Shown here: one piece after another, positions 2,956 to 64,000 of the stretch
Layout of the letters: each line of letters begins with the position of its first letter
How positions within the stretch are numbered: position 1 is the first letter of the stretch
Source: Salegentibacter echinorum
GTDB lineage: Bacteria; Bacteroidota; Bacteroidia; Flavobacteriales; Flavobacteriaceae
NCBI RefSeq assembly: GCF_900129445.1
Contig: NZ_FQVT01000013.1
Span: 1-64,000 of the forward strand
DNA: 64,000 nt
Direction of reading: 5' to 3'
The notes under the pieces: generated by a model
What the model saw: the letters and a program-made list of their open reading frames with translations, nothing else
What the model was told of the DNA's origin: nothing
Database searches by the model: none
Made by a program: the position numbers and the translations under genes

Positions 2956-4455
2956 TTACGATAAATTAGTTTCCGTAGCATTTATATCCTGCACACAATT
3001 TTTTACACCTTTTTCTCTTAACTTTTCCAAAGCGATGGTAAAACTTTCAACAAAGTCTTTATTTTCAATAAGATCACCAAATATAGGTTCAATTTTTAGA
3101 AATTCAACCGGATCTTTATGTGATAAAGCAGCTGCTCTTATCAACCTGTCGCTCATCGCATCCTTGATCTCGTAATCTTTATTGTTTTCATCTACACCAT
3201 CGTTGTATCTACACCATGCAGCAACCACAAAGTTAGCTCTGCTAATATTTCCTTTCCCGGTTATTTGATCTTTGATTGTTGGAAGCAGGAATATGGGCAC
3301 TTTGGCTGAACTTTCTGAACATATTCGCGAAATAAGGTCTTTGATATAAATGTTCTGGAACCTATCCACCAAACTTTTCTTATAATCTTTTAGATTAATT
3401 TCGCCCAAATCCCCAAGGGTTGGGGTAACTTCTATATCCATAAAATCTACCAGAAATTTTTCAAAATCAGGATCGTTCGCGGCTTCATCGATGGTATCGT
3501 ACCCATATAAAGCTCCTAGCATTCCCAACAATGTGTGCCCGGCATTTAGTAAACGAAGTTTCATATTTTCAAATGGAATAACATTCTCCACAAACTGCGC
3601 ACCTACTTTCTCCCAGACAGGTCGTCCTGCTTTAAAATCATCTTCTATTACCCATTGTATAAAAGGTTCACTTACCACCGGCCATTGGTCGTCAATTAAA
3701 AATTCTTCTTTTAAAATTTCTTTATCCTCTAAAACGGTTACTGGGGTGATACGGTCTACCATCGCATTTGGAAAACTTACATTTTCTTCGAACCAGGGTA
3801 GCAGATCAGGTTCGGTTTCTTTTATATAATCAGTTAGTGCTTTTTTTGCGACATCTCCATTTCCCTGGATGTTATCGCAAGATTGTATGGTAATCCCTCC
3901 CAATTCACGCTCCATTCGCAGTTTTAATGCCTGGGTAAGGTAACCAAATACCGTTTTTGGCGATCTGGGGTTTTTCATATCTTCAATGATCACAGGGTTG
4001 CTGAAATCGAACTTACCGGTAGCCTCGTTTAGGTTATAACCACCTTCAGTAATGGTAAGGGACACAATTTTTATATCTGGATGGGCAATTTTTTCAATCA
4101 CTGCCAATGGGTTCTCCGGTGCGAAAATAAATTCAACGATAGACCCAATAACCCTTGCGGAATACGTTCCGTCAAGTTCCTTTACCATAAGGGTATAGAG
4201 ACCGTCCTGATCTTTTAAAATATTATAGATCTTCCTGTCATAATCCAGAAGACCTATTCCGCAGATCCCGCAATCCGTAACCCCGAACTGTTCCATAAGC
4301 ATATCGGTATAATATGCCTGGTGAGACCTGTGAAAATTTCCAACTCCAATATGCACGATACTGGTAATAATTTCGTCCCGGTTATAATTAGGTACTTTTA
4401 CATTTGAAAGTACTGAACTTAAATTTTCCTGATTTAGTACGACTGATGTTTTCAT
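2956..4455 (-). CDS. Mannitol dehydrogenase family oxidoreductase (long-chain, NAD-dependent)
   Basis: 499 aa, the usual length of the polyol-specific long-chain dehydrogenases (mannitol 2-dehydrogenase, fructuronate reductase and relatives). The N-terminal nucleotide site is seen as HIGVGNFHRSHQAYY, and the catalytic Lys-Asn-His cluster as MKLRLLNAGHTLLG about two-thirds along. The expected reaction is mannitol + NAD+ to fructose + NADH. The neighbouring kinase and permease favour a polyol over a hexuronate, since no uronate isomerase or hydrolyase is present. Arabitol or sorbitol remain possible. It lies 5 bp downstream of the permease gene, hence co-transcribed. Confidence 0.87.
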   Translation of the reverse strand: MKTSVVLNQENLSSVLSNVKVPNYNRDEIITSIVHIGVGNFHRSHQAYYTDMLMEQFGVTDCGICGIGLLDYDRKIYNILKDQDGLYTLMVKELDGTYSARVIGSIVEFIFAPENPLAVIEKIAHPDIKIVSLTITEGGYNLNEATGKFDFSNPVIIEDMKNPRSPKTVFGYLTQALKLRMERELGGITIQSCDNIQGNGDVAKKALTDYIKETEPDLLPWFEENVSFPNAMVDRITPVTVLEDKEILKEEFLIDDQWPVVSEPFIQWVIEDDFKAGRPVWEKVGAQFVENVIPFENMKLRLLNAGHTLLGMLGALYGYDTIDEAANDPDFEKFLVDFMDIEVTPTLGDLGEINLKDYKKSLVDRFQNIYIKDLISRICSESSAKVPIFLLPTIKDQITGKGNISRANFVVAAWCRYNDGVDENNKDYEIKDAMSDRLIRAAALSHKDPVEFLKIEPIFGDLIENKDFVESFTIALEKLREKGVKNCVQDINATETNLS

Positions 4456-54736: not shown

Positions 54737-55045
54737 ATGTATACCAGTGAGCAAGAAGAAATTGCCTTATTTGCAAAAGTCTTTGGTCATCCGGCAAGAG
54801 TGGCCATTTTACAACAACTTTTTAAAATAGACGCTTGTTATTGTGGGGATTTATCAGAGGAAATCGGACTTGCTCAGCCAACAATCTCTCAACATCTCAA
54901 GGAATTAAAACATTTAGGCTTAATCAAAGGAAACGTTGAGGGAACAAGGGTTTGTTATTGCATTGAACCTAAAAATTGGACTAAAATGAAAAAAGTATTG
55001 TACCAATTTTTAGATCAAGACATTCCTAAGGCAGATTGTTGCTAA
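54737..55045 (+). CDS. arsR: ArsR-family transcriptional regulator
   Basis: 102 aa winged helix (GHPARVAILQQLFKI; GLAQPTISQHLKELKHLGLIKG). The metal-binding Cys pair is in the second helix, KIDACYCGDLSEE, and the protein ends in a CC pair. Heads the arsenic operon and would dissociate on binding As(III). Confidence 0.92.
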   Translation: MYTSEQEEIALFAKVFGHPARVAILQQLFKIDACYCGDLSEEIGLAQPTISQHLKELKHLGLIKGNVEGTRVCYCIEPKNWTKMKKVLYQFLDQDIPKADCC

Positions 55046-55062
55046 AAAAATTTAATTTTATC

Positions 55063-55085
55063 AATCGTTAAATTGCAATAAACAA
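55063..55085. promoter_or_regulatory. Second ArsR operator candidate
   Basis: AATCGTTAAATTGCAAT then AAACAA, matching the motif at 54688-54712. It lies between arsR and the DUF6428 gene, so that gene and arsC/acr3 may have their own regulated promoter. Confidence 0.5.
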
Positions 55086-55092
55086 ATATAGT

Positions 55093-55560
55093 ATGAAGCT
55101 ATCAGAAATTAAAAATAAATTGAATCAATTAGAAAAGATTTCTTTTCAATTGCCAAACGGAGATTTAGTCCCAGGACACTTTCACGTGACAGAAGTGGGG
55201 AAAATAACTAAAAACTTCATCGACTGTGGCGGAACTGTTCGCAAGGAAGAAGTTGTAAACTTTCAGCTATGGAACGCAAACGATTATGACCATAGATTAC
55301 ATCCAGAGAAATTATTGAACATTATTGAACTCTCAGAGAGGGTTTTGGGTATTGAAGATTTGGAAATAGAAGTGGAATATCAAGCCGATACGATTGGGAA
55401 ATTCGGACTTGATTTTGACGGAAAAAATTTTCTTTTGACTACAAAGCAAACCGACTGTTTGGCAAAGGATAATTGTGGAATCCCAACTGAGAAGCCAAAA
55501 CCCCAGTCTTCTGAATTGCCAGCAGGAAGCTCTTGTATCCTGGGAAGTGGGTGCTGCTAA
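55093..55560 (+). CDS. DUF6428-family protein of arsenic operons
   Basis: 155 aa. A conserved core (PNGDLVPGHFHVTEVGKITKNFIDCGGTVRKEEVVNFQLWNANDYDHRL) matches a family found next to ArsR and arsenate reductase in Bacteroidetes. The protein ends in a Cys-rich tail (SSCILGSGCC) that could bind arsenite. The C-terminal Cys cluster makes a metallochaperone role plausible, but no function is established. Confidence 0.75.
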   Translation: MKLSEIKNKLNQLEKISFQLPNGDLVPGHFHVTEVGKITKNFIDCGGTVRKEEVVNFQLWNANDYDHRLHPEKLLNIIELSERVLGIEDLEIEVEYQADTIGKFGLDFDGKNFLLTTKQTDCLAKDNCGIPTEKPKPQSSELPAGSSCILGSGCC

Positions 55561-55578
55561 TAAAAAAACTTCAATTAA

Positions 55579-56217
55579 ATGAAAAAAATAATAGAATCAA
55601 GCTTATTTCTGGGAATAGAAGAATTAATTAAAGATTTAGATCCTGAAATAATTTCAGAAGGACGTAAAGGTGTTTTACAGCCATTAACTAAGTTTATTCA
55701 GTCAAAAGTTTCAAATCATCAAGAAATACGTCTCAATTTTATTTGTACCCACAATTCACGAAGAAGTCATTTAGCACAAGTTTGGACACAAACAATGGCG
55801 TACCATTTCAATATTAAAAATGTGCATTGTTATTCTGGTGGTACCGAAACCACGGCGCTTTTCCCTATGGTTGCTGAAACTCTCAAAAACTCAGGTTTCA
55901 AAATCAAAAAGCTTTCAGAAAATAGGAATCCTGTTTACAGCATTAAATATGCAGGTAATGAGCATCCTATCATCGGGTTTTCAAAAAAAAATGATGATGA
56001 TTTCAATCCGAAATCTGAGTTTGCAGCAATTATGACCTGTTCCCAAGCTGATGAAGCTTGTCCCTTTGTTCCGGGGGCTGAAAAACGCTTCCCCATAACT
56101 TTTGAAGACCCAAAAGTATTTGACAATACCCCACAACAAACTGAAAAATACAGCGAAAGAAGTATGCAGATCGCAACCGAATTATTCTACGTTTTTTCTC
56201 AAATTAATCCTCAATAA
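55579..56217 (+). CDS. arsC: Arsenate reductase, LMW-phosphatase type
   Basis: 212 aa with the phosphatase loop [16 protein letters not shown] (C-x5-R with Ser/His variants usual in ArsC) and a later [27 protein letters not shown] containing the two resolving cysteines of thioredoxin-coupled ArsC. It reduces As(V) to As(III) for the exporter whose start overlaps its stop (TAATG). Confidence 0.88.
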
Positions 56218-57257
56218 TGGCATCAAAAAAATTAAGTTTTCTCGATAGTTACCTCACCTTATGGATTTTTATAGCTATGGTCTTGGGTGTTGGATTTGGT
56301 TATTTCATTCCTTCCTTTCCCGAGATAGTCAATTCGTTCAGTAGTGGAAGTACAAACATTCCCATTGCCATCGGACTGATATTAATGATGTATCCGCCTT
56401 TGGCAAAAGTGAATTTCGCCTTGTTGCCAAAAGTCTTTAGAAATACCAAAATCCTTTCTATTTCGCTTATTCTCAATTGGATAATCGGACCGGTTTTGAT
56501 GTTTATTTTAGCTATTACCTTTCTACGTGATTACCCCGAATATATGGTTGGGCTTATTTTAATCGGGTTGGCACGTTGTATTGCAATGGTACTTGTTTGG
56601 AACGATCTAGCCGAAGGCAGTAGCGAATATGGTGCAGGTTTGGTAGCCTTGAACAGCATCTTTCAGGTATTTGCCTATAGCTTTTACGCGTGGATCTTTA
56701 TAACGGTACTTCCACCTTACTTTGGGTTTGAGGGAGCGATCGTTGATATTTCCATAGGAACCATTGCAGAGAGTGTTGCCATTTATTTAGGAATCCCGTT
56801 TGCTATGGGGATTTTAAGTCGACTAATTTTAGTAAAGCTGAAAGGAGAAGAATGGTACACCCAAAAATTCATTCCCACGATCTCGCCATTGACATTGATT
56901 GCCCTTTTGTTTACAATCGTCATAATGTTCTCGTTAAAAGGCGAATTGATTGTTGAAATTCCAATGGATGTAGTGATTATTGCTGTGCCGCTACTCATAT
57001 ACTTTACCTTAATGTTCATCATAGGCTTTTTCTTTAGCAAAGCTACGGGTGCAGCATACGACAAAACCACAGCTGTTGCATTTACTGCAGCAGGGAATAA
57101 CTTCGAATTAGCGATTGCAGTGGCCATTGCCGTTTTTGGCCTAAATTCGGGACAGGCATTTGCTGGAGTTATAGGCCCATTGGTGGAAGTTCCGGCTTTA
57201 ATTTTATTGGTGCGGGTTTCTTTCTGGTTACGAAAGAAATATTATAAAGAAGTCTAG
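56217..57257 (+). CDS. acr3: ACR3-family arsenite exporter
   Basis: 346 aa with ten membrane segments. ACR3 hallmark region [36 protein letters not shown] is present, including the conserved cysteine of the arsenite path. Last gene of the ars operon; overlaps the arsC stop by 1 base, hence translationally coupled. Confidence 0.93.
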
Positions 57258-58586: not shown

Positions 58587-60164
58587 ATGGCTAAAAAGAC
58601 AATCAAAAAAGAAAAATCTATTGAAGAGAACCTCTGGGATGCAGCTAATAAACTGCGGGGGTCCATCGAATCTTCCGAATACAAACATGTGGTGCTGGGG
58701 CTTATCTTCCTAAAGTTTGCCAGCGATAAATTTGAAAAACGAAAAGAAGAGTTGATTGCCGAGGGCAAAGAGAAATACCTCGAAATGAAAGACTTCTATA
58801 ATATGAAGAACGTCTTTTTTCTGAATGAAACTTCGCGTTGGTCCTATTTGATTAAAAATGCTAAACAGGACGATATTGCTTTAAAAATTGACACAGCGCT
58901 TAACCAAATTGAAAAGAACAATCCTTCTTTAAGAGGTGCTTTGCCCGATAATTATTTTTCCAGACTTGGTTTGGAGAAAAGCAAATTGGGATCGCTTTTA
59001 GATACGATCAATAAGATTGATACCCAAAAAGACAAATCCCAGGATGTGGTGGGTCGCGTGTATGAATATTTCTTGTCCAAATTCGCTTTGGCGGAAGGAA
59101 AAGGGAAAGGAGAATTTTATACGCCCAAGAGTATTGTAAACCTGATTGCCGAAATGATTGAACCTTATAAAGGGATTATCTATGACCCGGCTTGTGGTTC
59201 GGGCGGTATGTTTGTGCAATCCATTAAATTTATTGAAAGTCACCACGGTAGCAAGCAAGAGATTTCCATTTACGGCCAGGAATATACCAACACCACTTAT
59301 AAACTGGCAAAAATGAACCTGGCTATTCGTGGGATTTCTGCCAATTTGGGCGAGAAAGCAGCCAATACGTTTAGCGACGACCAGCATAAAGATTTAAAGG
59401 CCGATTATATTATGGCCAATCCGCCGTTTAATCAAAAAGCATGGCGGGCCGAAAATGAATTGGTCGATGACCCACGGTGGCGAGGTTATGATATTCCACC
59501 AAAAAGTAATGCCAATTACGCCTGGATTTTGAATATGGTGTCCAAATTGTCTGATGATGGCGTTGCCGGGTTTATTTTGGCAAACGGTGCTTTATCAGGT
59601 GGTGGCGAAGAATATAAAATTAGGAGAAAGCTGGTAGAAAACAATCTGGTGGAAGCGATTGTGATTTTACCGCAGAATATGTTTTATACCACTAACATAA
59701 GCGTAACCGTATGGATACTTAATAAAAACAAAACTGCGCATACCCGTTCTATTGGCGATAAAGAACGCCACTACCGTGATCGGGAAGAAGAGGTTTTGTT
59801 TATGGACTTGCGCCAGATAGGCGAGCCTTTTGAAAAGAAATTTACCCAGTTTAGTTCTAAGCATATTCAGGATATTGCTAAAACCTATCACAATTGGCAG
59901 TCTCCGGTAGGCTCAGACTCCCCACAATATAAAGACATTCCGGAATATTGTTACAGCGCCACCAAAGCAGAGATTGAAAAGAAAGATTTTTCTTTGGTGC
60001 CCAGCAAGTATATTGAGTTTGTAAACCGGGATGAAAATATCGATTTTGATACCAAGATGGCAAGTTTACAAAGCGAGTTGAGTAATTTGTTGCAGCAAGA
60101 AGAACAATCAAAAAGTGAATTGTTGGATGTTTTTAAAGAGCTCGGTTATGCGATCAAATTATAG
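58587..60164 (+). CDS. hsdM: Type I restriction-modification DNA methyltransferase subunit
   Basis: 525 aa. N-terminal HsdM_N helical domain (LWDAANKLRGSIESSEYKHVVLGLIFLKFASDKF), then the N6-adenine MTase domain with SAM loop IYDPACGSGGMFVQS and catalytic IMANPPFNQKAW. Forms the M2S1 modification complex with HsdS. Its 3' end overlaps the hsdS start by 17 bp. Confidence 0.96.
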   Translation: MAKKTIKKEKSIEENLWDAANKLRGSIESSEYKHVVLGLIFLKFASDKFEKRKEELIAEGKEKYLEMKDFYNMKNVFFLNETSRWSYLIKNAKQDDIALKIDTALNQIEKNNPSLRGALPDNYFSRLGLEKSKLGSLLDTINKIDTQKDKSQDVVGRVYEYFLSKFALAEGKGKGEFYTPKSIVNLIAEMIEPYKGIIYDPACGSGGMFVQSIKFIESHHGSKQEISIYGQEYTNTTYKLAKMNLAIRGISANLGEKAANTFSDDQHKDLKADYIMANPPFNQKAWRAENELVDDPRWRGYDIPPKSNANYAWILNMVSKLSDDGVAGFILANGALSGGGEEYKIRRKLVENNLVEAIVILPQNMFYTTNISVTVWILNKNKTAHTRSIGDKERHYRDREEEVLFMDLRQIGEPFEKKFTQFSSKHIQDIAKTYHNWQSPVGSDSPQYKDIPEYCYSATKAEIEKKDFSLVPSKYIEFVNRDENIDFDTKMASLQSELSNLLQQEEQSKSELLDVFKELGYAIKL

Positions 60165-61776
60165 GCCTATTGGCGATTACATACGTCTGGTGGATGAACG
60201 GAACAAGGAGTTGAAAATAACCACGCTTTTAGGCTTGAGCATTACGAAAGAGTTTATTCCTTCCGTGGCCAATACGGTGGGAACCAATATGCGCAATTAT
60301 AAAATTGTTCGAAAAAACCAGTTTGCCTGTAGTATCATGCAGGTTCGTAGAGACAAGAAAATGCCTGTTGCTATTTTAAAGGATTTTAAGGAAGCAATCA
60401 TCTCGCAGGCTTATCCGGTCTTTGAAGTTATCGATGAAGATTTACTCCATCCAGATTATTTAATGATGTGGTTTTCGCGTGAAGAATTTGATAGGCAAGC
60501 CACGTTTCACGCAGTAGGAGGTGTAAGAGGAAGTTTGGAATGGGAAGATTTTTTAAGTTTTGAACTACCAGTTCCTTCCATTGAAAAACAGCGCGAAATT
60601 GTTGCGGAATACAATGTGGTCAAAAACCGAATAAAACTCAATGAGCAGCTTAACCAAAAACTGGAAGAAACTGCGCAGGCGTTATATAAACATTGGTTTG
60701 TGGATTTCGAGTTTCCCTGCCTTCCTTCGGACTATCGTCCTCACGGGCAGGTAAACCTCAAAATATCTGATAATGAACTGAAATCTGAAATTGCTCAAGT
60801 ATGTAATTATAAAAGAACGGGAGGTTTGCCAATATCAGATGGAAGAACTTGGTTTGTGTATCTCATACTTTGTGACGATGACAGTATTTATAAAGGTATA
60901 ACAAATGATTTGTATCGCCGATTTTATGAACATTATACCGCCCAAGGCGCTAAACATACCAAACAGCACAAACCTGTAAAGGTTATACATTGGGAACAAT
61001 TTGATACTAAAGAAGCAGCCGCAAAACGAGAAAAAGAATTAAAAACGGGTTATGGTAGAACTTGGATTGATAGACAAATTAAAAAAGCTGGCGGCCTTGA
61101 AATTATAAAAGCAGGTTTACCTGCCCCGAAAACACAGTTGAGGACGGCAGGGAAAATGGTGTATAATGAGGAGTTGGATAAGGAGATTCCGGAGGGGTGG
61201 AAAGATGGGAGTTTTTTGGAGGCTTTAGAGATTAGTGGAGGTGGCACTCCAAGAACGCAAAACCCAGATTATTGGAACGGTAATATTCCCTTTTTCACCC
61301 CTAAAGATGTTAATGATAGTTACTATGTGATTGAATCTGAAAAGACTTTAACCGAAGAAGGATTAAATAATTGTAGTAGTAAGTTATATAGTAAAAACAC
61401 AATTTTTATTACAGCGCGGGGCACTGTTGGTGAAATAAGTATAGCTGGAACAGAAATGTCCATGAATCAAAGTTGTTATGCTTTCACTGAACCAGATTGT
61501 CTTCAGTTTTATGGGCATCAATTAGCTATACTTACAATCAAAGAACTTATTGGAGAAGCTGTAGGTGCCGTTTTTAGTGCATTGGTAACAAAGGATTTTC
61601 AGGGTAAATCAGTAATTATACCTCCTAAATATTTGAAAAAACTATTTAATAGGAAAATAGAACAATTCTATTTTAGTATTAGAAGTAAAGAGTTTCAAAA
61701 CATCCAACTTTATAAATTGAAAAATCTTCTTCTTTCAAGAATGGCAAATGTGAAAAAAGAAAAAGAAATGGTATGA
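60148..61776 (+). CDS. hsdS: HsdS specificity subunit with inserted GIY-YIG nuclease domain
   Basis: 542 aa from the ATG at 60148 (MRSNYRPIGDYIRLVDERN), overlapping hsdM by 17 bp. Residues about 1-160 form target-recognition domain 1 with its conserved helix (VPSIEKQREIVAEY...QLNQKLEETAQALYKHWFVDFEF). Residues about 235-312 (60850-61089) are a UPF0213-like GIY-YIG domain: FVYLIL...IYKGITN, catalytic Arg in LYRRFYEH, Glu in AAAKREKELK. The usual HsdS linker then resumes (GKMVYNEELDKEIPEGWKDG), followed by TRD2 (LEISGGGTPRTQNPDYW to the C-terminal helix). Normal HsdS proteins are 390-430 aa, so about 130 residues were inserted. The frame is intact. Confidence 0.9.
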   Translation: MRSNYRPIGDYIRLVDERNKELKITTLLGLSITKEFIPSVANTVGTNMRNYKIVRKNQFACSIMQVRRDKKMPVAILKDFKEAIISQAYPVFEVIDEDLLHPDYLMMWFSREEFDRQATFHAVGGVRGSLEWEDFLSFELPVPSIEKQREIVAEYNVVKNRIKLNEQLNQKLEETAQALYKHWFVDFEFPCLPSDYRPHGQVNLKISDNELKSEIAQVCNYKRTGGLPISDGRTWFVYLILCDDDSIYKGITNDLYRRFYEHYTAQGAKHTKQHKPVKVIHWEQFDTKEAAAKREKELKTGYGRTWIDRQIKKAGGLEIIKAGLPAPKTQLRTAGKMVYNEELDKEIPEGWKDGSFLEALEISGGGTPRTQNPDYWNGNIPFFTPKDVNDSYYVIESEKTLTEEGLNNCSSKLYSKNTIFITARGTVGEISIAGTEMSMNQSCYAFTEPDCLQFYGHQLAILTIKELIGEAVGAVFSALVTKDFQGKSVIIPPKYLKKLFNRKIEQFYFSIRSKEFQNIQLYKLKNLLLSRMANVKKEKEMV

Positions 61777-64000
61777 TTACGAAATTTAAACGTATAAAGA
61801 ATCTTGGAGTTTTTAAAGATTTTGATTGGGATAAAACTGTTAGAGACAAAAACGAAGATAATATCATTATTTTCAAAAAGCTCAATATTCTCTATGGTCG
61901 CAATTATTCGGGAAAAACAACACTTTCCAGAATTGTTAGAGCATTAGAAACAGGTCAGATTTCTGATAAATATGAAGATCCTGAATGCTGTATTAGTTTA
62001 GAGGATAGTACCGATGTAACGCAAGTGAACTTTACAACACATAGTAAAACTGTTCGAGTTTTTAACGAAGATTTTATAGAAGATAATTTAAAGTTTATTT
62101 TTGATCCTAATGAAAGTGTAGAAGCTTTTGCCATTTTAGGCGAAGGGAACAATGAAATAGAAAAAGAAATTGAAGACCTTAAAAAGGATTTAGGCTCTAA
62201 TAAAGAAGACAGCGAAACAGGTTTCTATAAAGATTTAAAGACTTTGAAGACTTTACATGAAACTGCTAAAAATTCTTATTCCGATGCAGAGGAAAGCCTC
62301 AATAAACATCTGAAAAATAAAGCTACCGGACAGCCAAACGGCATTAAATATCAGTCCAAATACGAAGAAGTCAATTACAATATTAACAAGCTTAAATTAG
62401 ATATAGAATCGGTTAAAACGGATTCTTATCAACCATTGAATGAACAAGAGGAATCTCAAGCCGAGAATGTTTTAAAAGAAGAGACTAAGGATGAAATTCC
62501 CAAATTGGAAAGTTTAAATCTTAGGTTTTCAGAATTTCAAACAAAAGCAAGTGAGTTAGTAAATCGTAAAATTGGTCAATCTGACAAAATCCAAGAACTT
62601 GCAAAAGATGCCGTGCTTAACAGGTGGGTTAAAGAAGGTAAAGAGTTGCATCAGGATAATCGAAATATTTGTTCGTTTTGCAATAACCCGATAAGTGAAG
62701 AACGATGGGGTGAGTTAGATAAACATTTTGATGAGGAATCAGATAAGCTGGAAAAAGATATTAATGATTTAGTTTCTCAAATTGATGATGAAAAAGAATT
62801 ATTAGATGAGTATGTGATTTTTACAAAAGACCAAATTTATTCAAAATTTAGAGGTGATTTTTACAGTACGAAGGATTCTTATATAACTGATGTTGAAAAT
62901 TATATTAGCTCACTGGAATTAATTAAAAAACAACTGATAAGTAAAAAAAAGAATATTCTCAATCATCAAGTATTTACTGATGTCGATGATTTTTCAGCCG
63001 ATGTAGAAAACACAAAAGATAAACTGGAGGAAATCAGAACGAATTCTAACGAGTACTCATCAAAATTAGACTCTGATCAAAATGAAGCCAAAAAAAAATT
63101 AAGACTCAAAGAAGTTCACGATTTCATTAATGATATTAGATATGATGATTTAATTACTGAACTTGATTCCCTTGCTGAAAAAGAAAAAAATGAGAGGAAT
63201 AAAAAGGATGCCAAGCAAGATAAGATTGATAAATTACTGAAGAACATTTCTGAGAAACAAAAGGAACTGAAAGATGAAAGCAAAGGAGCAGATAAAGTTA
63301 ACGAATATTTGAATGATCATTTTGGCCACGAATTTTTGACAATGAAAGCAATTGAGTTTGAAGATGAAGAAACAGGCAACGATATCTACAGATTTGAAAT
63401 TCGAAGAGAAGGAAAAAAAGCTTATCATCTCAGTGAAGGTGAAAAAAGTTTAATCGCTTTCTGTTATTTTGTCGCAAAACTTCAAGATATCGCAACAAAA
63501 GAAAAAAATCCGATTATTTGGATTGATGATCCAATATCAAGTTTAGACGGGAATCATATTTTCTTTATTTACTCATTATTAAAAATTAAAATCTACAACA
63601 GTAAAGATTTTGAGCAAATATTTATTTCAACCCATAATCTTAATTTTTTTAAGTATTTACAACGACTTCCAAGCCATAATGACAAAAAGAAGGATAGAGT
63701 AAGACACTTTATTATCGAGAGAAAAGATAAAATATCAATTATCTCCGAAATGCCTGATTATATTAAAAGAAATGTCACTGAGTTTAATCATTTATTCAAA
63801 CAAATAGTTGACTGTTCTAACTTAGGACAACTCACGGATCAGAACTATACACTACTTTATAATTTTGGAAACAATGCAAGGAAGTTTTTTGAAATTTATC
63901 TTTTTTATAAATATCCTGATGCTTCAAATCAAACTGAAAAAATGAGAAAATTTTTTGGTGAGGACGAAATACCTACTGTATTGACTGATAGGATAAATAA
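61773..64000 (+). CDS. RloC/PrrC-like AAA ATPase, candidate anticodon nuclease (partial)
   Basis: 742 codons without a stop, cut by the window edge; its ATG overlaps the hsdS stop (ATGA). Walker A GRNYSGKTTLSR (residues 42-53), long coiled coils, a zinc-hook CSFC (Cys300/Cys303), ABC signature LSEGEKS (553-559), Walker B IIWIDDPISSLD (Asp585, Asp586) and H-loop ISTHN. This is the AAA_13 architecture of RloC. Beyond it, NNARKFFEIYL supplies Arg703 and Glu707 at the four-residue spacing of the Arg-Glu pair in the PrrC/RloC anticodon-nuclease triad. The expected His lies past the edge. Rad50-like repair function is the alternative. Confidence 0.8.
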   Translation, partial: MITKFKRIKNLGVFKDFDWDKTVRDKNEDNIIIFKKLNILYGRNYSGKTTLSRIVRALETGQISDKYEDPECCISLEDSTDVTQVNFTTHSKTVRVFNEDFIEDNLKFIFDPNESVEAFAILGEGNNEIEKEIEDLKKDLGSNKEDSETGFYKDLKTLKTLHETAKNSYSDAEESLNKHLKNKATGQPNGIKYQSKYEEVNYNINKLKLDIESVKTDSYQPLNEQEESQAENVLKEETKDEIPKLESLNLRFSEFQTKASELVNRKIGQSDKIQELAKDAVLNRWVKEGKELHQDNRNICSFCNNPISEERWGELDKHFDEESDKLEKDINDLVSQIDDEKELLDEYVIFTKDQIYSKFRGDFYSTKDSYITDVENYISSLELIKKQLISKKKNILNHQVFTDVDDFSADVENTKDKLEEIRTNSNEYSSKLDSDQNEAKKKLRLKEVHDFINDIRYDDLITELDSLAEKEKNERNKKDAKQDKIDKLLKNISEKQKELKDESKGADKVNEYLNDHFGHEFLTMKAIEFEDEETGNDIYRFEIRREGKKAYHLSEGEKSLIAFCYFVAKLQDIATKEKNPIIWIDDPISSLDGNHIFFIYSLLKIKIYNSKDFEQIFISTHNLNFFKYLQRLPSHNDKKKDRVRHFIIERKDKISIISEMPDYIKRNVTEFNHLFKQIVDCSNLGQLTDQNYTLLYNFGNNARKFFEIYLFYKYPDASNQTEKMRKFFGEDEIPTVLTDRIN

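Follow-up and report, generated by a model that had tools for sequence, protein, structure and literature searches.

A GIY-YIG nuclease domain between inverted hairpin ends in a type I HsdS gene suggests a homing-like mobile element of restriction-modification systems

The first 64,000 nucleotides of contig NZ_FQVT01000013.1 of Salegentibacter echinorum (GCF_900129445.1), referred to as the window in the following, contain a type I restriction-modification (R-M) locus whose specificity gene, hsdS, carries an in-frame insert. This insert encodes a nuclease domain of the GIY-YIG superfamily, lies between the two halves of the protein with their target recognition domains (TRDs), and is bounded by inverted repeats. 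In an earlier note, made from the DNA alone, the gene had been described as an HsdS interrupted by an intact UPF0213/YhbQ-like GIY-YIG domain; here, we characterize the insert, its ends and its relatives, and discuss how the arrangement may have come about. Its features are:

60148..61776, + strand: hsdS carrying the in-frame GIY-YIG insert, 542 aa, overlapping the 3' end of hsdM
60148..60714, + strand: TRD1 and first conserved HsdS helix (aa 1-189; AlphaFold2 helix 145-185)
60715..61152, + strand: insert, 438 nt, 146 codons, bounded by CCCTGCC / GGCAGGG, in place of 39 nt found in relatives
60712..60758, + strand: left terminal inverted repeat, forming a hairpin by itself (CCCTGCC..GGGCAGG; DNA fold z -1.88; 0/5000 in the recoding test)
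60850..61056, + strand: GIY-YIG catalytic domain (Pfam aa 235-303, E 4e-16)
60859..61032, + strand: residues Y238, Y248, R258, H262 and E295 (codon starts 60859, 60889, 60919, 60931 and 61030)
61113..61155, - strand: right terminal inverted repeat, forming a hairpin by itself (DNA fold z -2.39; recoding test)
61153..61776, + strand: TRD2 and second conserved HsdS helix (best Pfam Methylase_S stretch aa 348-509; helix 494-534)

The frame is free of stops and matches the Pfam families Methylase_S (E 4.3e-25) and GIY-YIG, which bears out the description in the earlier note. With two TRDs, the conserved helices, an adjacent hsdM and an hsdR in the locus, it has the hallmarks of a type I HsdS, and its best sequence match among solved structures is the HsdS 1yf2 (phmmer, 2.3e-30). 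The inserted domain scores 59.5 bits against PF01541 (gathering score 22.6) and is nearest in sequence to the UPF0213 structures 1ywl (phmmer, 3.7e-10) and 1zg2 (3e-8). Its residues Y238, Y248, R258, H262 and E295, which we take to be catalytic given the role known for the GIY-YIG family, are invariant in the seven-row alignment of HsdS inserts and in A2, a mixed set of Hsd proteins; the two tyrosines, the arginine (as R257/R258) and the glutamate had already been placed there, and H262 is additional.

An AlphaFold2 model of the full HsdS, based on 13 sequences (mean predicted local distance difference test, pLDDT, 76; predicted TM-score 0.57), retains the two long helices 145-185 and 494-534, and the linkers around the GIY-YIG domain (187-213, 220-226 and 323-328) have pLDDT values below 50. 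With both helices kept and the domain attached through low-confidence linkers, the HsdS spacer does not look broken in the model, a point that had been raised for checking. In Foldseek searches, the full model retrieved HsdS and M2S structures at the top (1yf2, TM-score 0.51 to the target) and UPF0213 1zg2 at rank 15; the insert modelled alone (pLDDT 80.5) retrieved 1zg2 (E 2.6e-4) and, more weakly, the Slx1-Slx4 structures 7cq2 (E 0.05) and 7cq3 (E 0.09), so that fold and sequence both place it in the UPF0213/Slx1-like branch. Because no conserved start codon of its own lies upstream of the domain, it is probably made only as a fusion with HsdS. Judged by the ratio of nonsynonymous to synonymous rates (dN/dS), which is 0.08 for the window against each of the related loci L015 and L016 and 0.21 for L017 against L015, the domain is under purifying selection; dS is saturated in the pair of the window with L017 and in the pairs involving L018.

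As for the borders of the insert, the break after WFVDFEF stands as first described, and the point of resumption has been refined to KMVYNEEL, giving 60715-61152. The two ends, about 47 nt on the left and 43 nt on the right, match one another in inverted orientation (stretches of 15 nt at 93% and 14 nt at 100%), and each is also a CCTGCC/GGCAGG hairpin in its own right, reminiscent of repetitive extragenic palindromic (REP) sequences. Since these regions encode protein, we applied a control in which both linkers were randomly recoded with the amino acids unchanged and the inverted match was scored by gapped alignment. None of 5000 recodings equalled the match of the window, and the relatives behaved similarly in the same test (L015 0/2000, L016 0/2000, L017 14/2000, L018 2/2000 and L019 4/2000; L020 was left out). 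Inverted ends that exceed the coding need in the window and in L015-L019 probably belong to the ancestral insert. We did not rely on synonymous divergence as a sign of constraint on the linker DNA, as its reduction is uneven among pairs: it is clear for the window and L017 (15/42 vs 36/46, p 8e-5), borderline for the window with L015 and L016 (p 0.056 each) and absent for L017 and L015 (p 0.67).

A scan of the insert against contigs from 84,980 species, each represented by a single genome, confirmed six relatives with the insert, all of them HsdS and all at the identical site: each leaves HsdS after FEFP or FDFP and resumes it at GKM or GEM. A fusion that recurs at one position in six further HsdS can hardly be accidental. 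The carriers are Empedobacter falsenii, Faecalibacter macacae, Flavobacteriaceae F08102 and metagenome-assembled genomes labelled Lentisphaerae, Clostridiales and Nitrospinota; the L019 copy is without the HsdS N-terminus, and L020 ends at a contig edge. These inserts are 54-71% identical to that of the window, and the TRD2 regions 20-30% (four pairs compared). Nevertheless, the HsdS form of the insert is rare. Protein and profile searches covering 1,682 genomes in all, some counted more than once, found it only in the window's own genome (G000) and in genomes reached through the six relatives, and within the family of Faecalibacter it occurs only in the two known genomes among 148 (E 1e-22). 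A phage origin was considered and rejected, as no relative on a viral contig was confirmed among 2 single-protein and 49 alignment candidate stretches; phage records yielded 27 matches to the domain, all below 60% identity, and plasmids two records at 34% coverage.

Empty alleles exist as well. HsdS proteins matching the TRD1 half of the window at E 1e-15 were found in seven among 60 relatives, the window's own genome counted, and all six others (L111-L116; aa 1-190, 48-70% identity) are without the GIY-YIG domain, as expected for a homing-type insert. Their linkers differ: three have a plain 30 nt between FP and GG, one has no linker, and two, of 87 and 78 nt, harbor a different hairpin-forming sequence, which folds strongly as RNA (-11.5 and -22.3 kcal/mol, raw values without shuffled controls). 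In L112, from the same genus as the window, a native stretch of 13 codons, PNKEGKPYKSSGG, lies between the two residues that bound the insert of the window. The fold of the empty site as a possible target hairpin has a z of -2.06 in L112 and -0.75 in L113, at two loci only.

The carriers from Empedobacter (L015) and Faecalibacter (L016) allow a comparison of the insert with its surroundings. The two inserts differ at 8/438 positions, the hsdM genes at 94/1244, and the flanks at 14/125 on the left (p 2e-5) and 7/58 on the right (p 6e-4), with the closest differences at the fourth nucleotide leftward and the ninth rightward. In this pair, the insert seems to have been exchanged more recently than the sequence beside it.

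The nearest other domains also reside in frame in type I R-M genes, namely in the N-terminal third of HsdR (L006, L013, L014), in HsdM (L007) and in a central part of HsdR (L033); the host proteins of L006, L007, L033 and a further HsdR locus, L117, were confirmed by Pfam, and those of L013 and L014 are named by their likeness to L006. The F08102 operon harbors one insert in hsdS and a second one in hsdR (L033). Compared with the insert-free hsdR of the window's genome, L033 contains a GIY-YIG insertion of 282 nt and, 50 nt upstream, a bare palindrome of 51 nt, which have their first 13 nt, CCTGCCTGTGCCG, and their last 13 nt, CACGGCAGACAGG, in common. Both lengths are divisible by three, and the same comparison shows no target duplication around either. 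In a tree of 68 GIY-YIG domains, limited by few columns and long branches and built after dropping 11 loci with a failed motif match, the seven HsdS inserts form one branch (98/87), which four of the five HsdR inserts join (98/92); the HsdM insert follows next, together with one long-branched stand-alone row (98/91). The fifth HsdR insert, L117, branches among stand-alone genes and, on this placement, is of independent origin. It has inverted ends of its own (20 nt, 90%), tandemly repeated on both sides; they are amplified in frame to six copies 21 bp apart at 3267-3393 and three copies 45 bp apart at 3729-3840. Two further observations concern these loci. The hsdR of L006 contains a second in-frame insert, a DUF559 domain (2041-2464; Pfam 3.1e-34) that a 10-nt, 90% inverted repeat bounds and that has a hairpin on one side; it may represent another nuclease family of like architecture; and between the insert-bearing hsdM and hsdS of L007 lies a 145-aa open reading frame (ORF; 844-1281), which we assign presumptively to the GxxExxY family.

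Outside the window and the genomes of the HsdS scan, at least six domains lie in frames longer than 400 aa, of which five belong to type I R-M proteins (G263, G131, G530, G399 and G109) and the sixth, in G1187, is a C-terminal fusion to what we take from its sequence to be a CinA-like protein. This CinA-like fusion, L131, is in frame and comes from the phylum of G735. The sample of long frames is biased by its queries: G263, G131, G530 and G399 were found with the window's insert and then became rows of profile A2, which found the remaining two among matches listed to about E 2.5e-16. Therefore, a preference of the family for R-M genes is suggestive only. In the tree, G109 is not part of the R-M clade, and yet its host protein is an HsdR; in a search around G733, only one of the 36 matches listed lies in a frame longer than 400 aa, and it is the HsdS already known.

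Stand-alone YhbQ-like genes are common, with a match at E 1e-10 in 187/395 genomes of the window's phylum. To judge their flanks, we used intervals of the same loci as controls; the pooled and per-phylum tests overlap in loci and are not independent. In the pooled test (30/41 loci usable), matching inverted flanks occur in 9/30 stand-alone kin vs 24/930 control intervals at a score of 13.5, and in 6/30 vs 4/930 at a score of 15. The enrichment is clearer in the phylum of G733 (19/29 loci usable) than in that of the window, with 6/19 vs 11/589 at 13.5 and 5/19 vs 4/589 at 15. Loci were dropped for too little flank and, in the per-phylum tests, also for a domain length outside 150-400 nt. A first version of the test took mismatched locus pairs as null (52/53 loci usable) and had 14/52 loci reach the 99% point; we prefer the within-locus controls because the maximum of that null, 31.5, exceeds every observed score.

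Some stand-alone genes form tandem arrays, in units of about 365 bp at L118:839-2741 (5.2 copies) and L119:929-3824 (7.9 copies; Tandem Repeats Finder) and with two copies each by eye at L120:340-1010 and L121:700-1520. The units of L118 and L119 carry at their end a CCGCC..GGCGG palindrome and a duplicated 3' portion of a tRNA, and a tRNA gene is present in four of nine array loci scanned (L118 Met, L120 Met, L121 Pro, L124 Asn). Bare CCTGYCTG..CAGRCAGG palindromes, in turn, are found inside open frames, between the TRDs of another HsdS at L071 (G131) and in genes seemingly unrelated to R-M at L079 and L080 (G399); frames of up to 120 codons hold 7 of the 12 palindrome loci examined. Such palindromes also occur in unrelated genes and in intergenic DNA.

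The remaining genes around the modified hsdS are these:

58587..60164, + strand: hsdM, type I DNA methyltransferase subunit (Pfam N6_Mtase 4e-105, HsdM_N 3.6e-25)
61773..64000, + strand, running to 64148 past the window: AAA_13 / PDC-S06 protein with a PrrC-like region

The latter matches AAA_13 in Pfam (4.5e-131) and PDC-S06 (2e-294) and PrrC (2.2e-11) in PADLOC, and is present at full length in L021. It is followed by a RhuM-family protein and an intact-looking hsdR, both past the window on the same contig, so that the gene order is hsdM, hsdS, AAA_13/PDC-S06, RhuM, hsdR. The interval between hsdS and hsdR partly differs among four genomes (L021:4774-8422, L033:4667-8734, L034:3640-8546 and L035:4660-10364), with AAA_13 and RhuM in the window's genome and certain small ORFs shared between some of the others, and resembles a hot spot of defence genes. 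A DUF5712 gene, a coupling-protein gene and an IS1595 transposase lie within 49.5-53.2 kb, and the operon may therefore sit on a mobile island. Beside it, at 54737-57257, an ArsR-like regulator, an arsenate-reductase-like protein and an ACR3-like transporter presumably form an arsenic cluster.

Three options had been put forward for the insert, namely an HsdS that cuts by itself, a damage sensor and a homing-type insert. We favour the last one in a modified form, because of the inverted hairpin ends, the empty sites, the kin in HsdR and HsdM, and the seemingly more recent exchange of the insert. With a probability of about 0.6, it is a homing-like mobile element that has REP-type ends, sits in frame, does without splicing and is at home in type I R-M genes. 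Such an element would consist of a single UPF0213/Slx1-type GIY-YIG frame between two inverted REP-like hairpins. It would have inserted into hsdS with the reading frame kept, at the flexible linker that joins the first conserved helix to TRD2. There it would neither undergo splicing nor abolish HsdS, and it would be translated with the whole fusion, tethered as an additional domain. Its close kin would make up a lineage that lives in type I R-M genes and came to occupy HsdS, HsdM and two or more sites in HsdR. We propose that a structure-selective, Slx1-like nuclease would cut hairpins extruded by the palindromic ends or by palindromic targets, and that repair or recombination would then copy the element in a homing-like manner; no target duplication is seen, and bare palindromes that share its ends would be non-autonomous derivatives. 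Since hsd operons pass from species to species and recombine their TRDs about a conserved centre, they may serve as a vehicle, in which the linker would tolerate the insert, HsdS would survive and the TRDs would keep changing. Low intrinsic nuclease activity would account for the tolerance of the host towards an element that may well be selfish.

Several points weigh against this interpretation. What is read directly from the sequences is the fusion, its ends, the empty sites, the kin elsewhere, the ends in common with one bare palindrome, the purifying selection and, in one pair, the unequal divergence of insert and flanks; nuclease activity and movement are inferred. The junction in the window is not clean, as the insert replaces 39 native nt, and the event was therefore either an unclean insertion or an insertion followed by loss. 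In the window's genome, the strict pattern of the right-end hairpin has its sole occurrence at the insert and is therefore not multicopy, and a related palindrome pattern has no occurrence; as neither pattern found one, a high-copy repeat in this genome was rejected. The GIY-YIG domains of L033 and L007 are surrounded by weaker inverted pairs alone (13 nt at 85% and 16 nt at 81%), and the N-terminal HsdR inserts have a palindrome on the 5' side only. In the window's phylum (34/36 loci usable), the enrichment of inverted flanks around stand-alone genes is weak, with 7/34 vs 45/1054 at a score of 13.5 and 2/34 vs 20/1054 at 15. The comparison of L015 and L016 is one pair, with flank widths chosen after viewing the alignment and an insert dN/dS of 0.43 on 8 changes, and ordinary recombination of the gene centre could yield the same pattern. 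Finally, a monophyletic insertion at one HsdS site would also fit one old event followed by gene transfer.

The main rival, which we regard as unlikely overall yet deserving of serious attention, is a domesticated accessory nuclease that works within the type I enzyme and, targeted by HsdS, nicks or trims branched DNA, for instance DNA arising from HsdR or from blocked forks. It would explain the conservation equally well as a mobile element. It agrees with one insertion point in seven HsdS from four phyla (by record labels), invariant catalytic residues, a dN/dS of 0.08, and a probable fusion-only product in the absence of a conserved start codon; the domain is also kept although the TRDs diverge, and the surrounding hsdM-hsdS-hsdR locus is complete. 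It accounts less well for empty alleles within one genus, for kin at unrelated HsdR and HsdM sites, including inserts in both hsdS and hsdR of the F08102 operon, and for inverted ends beyond the coding need. More doubtful still is a plain fusion, in which a stand-alone YhbQ-like gene would have landed in hsdS by illegitimate recombination at repeats, the hybrid would have spread by ordinary transfer, and the palindromes would be bystanders, REPs of a kind frequent in these genomes. The abundance of stand-alone genes, the bare palindromes in unrelated genes and intergenic DNA, and the C-terminal CinA-like fusion agree with it; the type I R-M hosts of five of the six long-frame cases (among the matches listed, with their search bias) and the common 13-nt ends of the two L033 inserts are not readily explained by it. 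An element of intron or intein type, cut out at the RNA or protein level, is very improbable and was rejected, even if the inverted ends could pair in RNA and join the flanks. Splicing or degradation of the insert in homologues, named in the earlier note as grounds for discarding its proposal, was not found: the frame is kept in all seven inserts, with stops in both other frames and strong constraint at the protein level, the catalytic residues are intact, no intron family matches the insert (the sole Rfam match at E 1 is sub-threshold and lies outside it), and neither Pfam nor NCBIfam finds an intein domain.

A broader version of the mobile-element interpretation is possible, and we put it forward as tentative: a new class of prokaryotic mobile elements, with a structure-selective GIY-YIG nuclease between REP-like hairpins, that may spread, without splicing, through in-frame residence in tolerant linkers of type I R-M subunits, with bare palindromes as non-autonomous forms, stand-alone kin that would spread in tandem at tRNA genes, and HsdS turned into a hybrid enzyme. 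If this is true, target recognition by HsdS could guide the nuclease, GIY-YIG nucleases would be linked to palindromic repeats, and restriction systems, which are a barrier against foreign DNA, would serve as the vehicle of a mobile element. A nuclease on the specificity subunit also bears on the evolution of type I specificities. Furthermore, the acquisition of a catalytic domain in frame is usually seen long afterwards, whereas the present case brings together ends, empty sites, a further insertion within one operon and a bare form.

To what extent is this arrangement known? The earlier note knew of no characterized HsdS with this layout, which holds for HsdS in open-access PMC full texts; within these, we found no recognizable report of an HsdS-GIY-YIG protein or of GIY-YIG nucleases with REP palindromes. 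For type I subunits at large, a case had already been published: the HsdR MCA0838 of Methylococcus capsulatus carries an insert from the Slx1 cluster of GIY-YIG domains that an 80%-identical homolog lacks and that its describers considered recent (Dunin-Horkawicz et al., 2006; PMC1564403). It resembles our case as an in-frame Slx1-type GIY-YIG domain in a type I R-M subunit, but is a single HsdR, and the Slx-1 section of that paper describes neither flanking palindromes nor HsdS and HsdM cases nor a lineage. The HsdR insert is thus known, and for the ends, the HsdS and HsdM cases and the lineage we found no report in the open-access texts.

The UPF0213, YhbQ and Slx1-type nucleases have the domain, the motif order and the fold in common with the insert, but are, as far as the consulted part of the source goes, stand-alone or joined to a zinc finger (PMC7017083), whereas the insert lies inside HsdS between hairpin ends. 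Slx1 is structure-selective. It is described as weak alone and as stimulated 500-fold by Slx4 (PMC7017083). Rickettsia palindromic elements likewise place palindromes in frame within protein genes (PMC10969869); they measure about 150 bp and contain a short peptide frame, whereas here one nuclease-bearing and one bare form, those of L033, have common ends. At 438 nt and with a nuclease, it is not such an element, and the 51-nt bare form of L033 is similar in kind only.

Closer in architecture are the REP/RAYT (REP-associated tyrosine transposase, TnpA-REP) systems, with inverted short palindromes around a nuclease gene, as also seen here, bare palindromes elsewhere and no visible target duplication. 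The RAYT nuclease is a Y1 HUH transposase. The nuclease of the insert, by contrast, is of the GIY-YIG type, the only Pfam matches in the HsdS protein at E 0.1 are Methylase_S and GIY-YIG, with no Y1 HUH transposase, and the palindromes we tested are low-copy. Lastly, the GIY-YIG homing endonuclease genes of the I-TevI and I-BmoI type resemble the insert in having a nuclease frame inside a host gene, with empty alleles. The known ones ride in introns or stand between genes, whereas the insert shows no sign of splicing and the HsdS frame runs straight through it.

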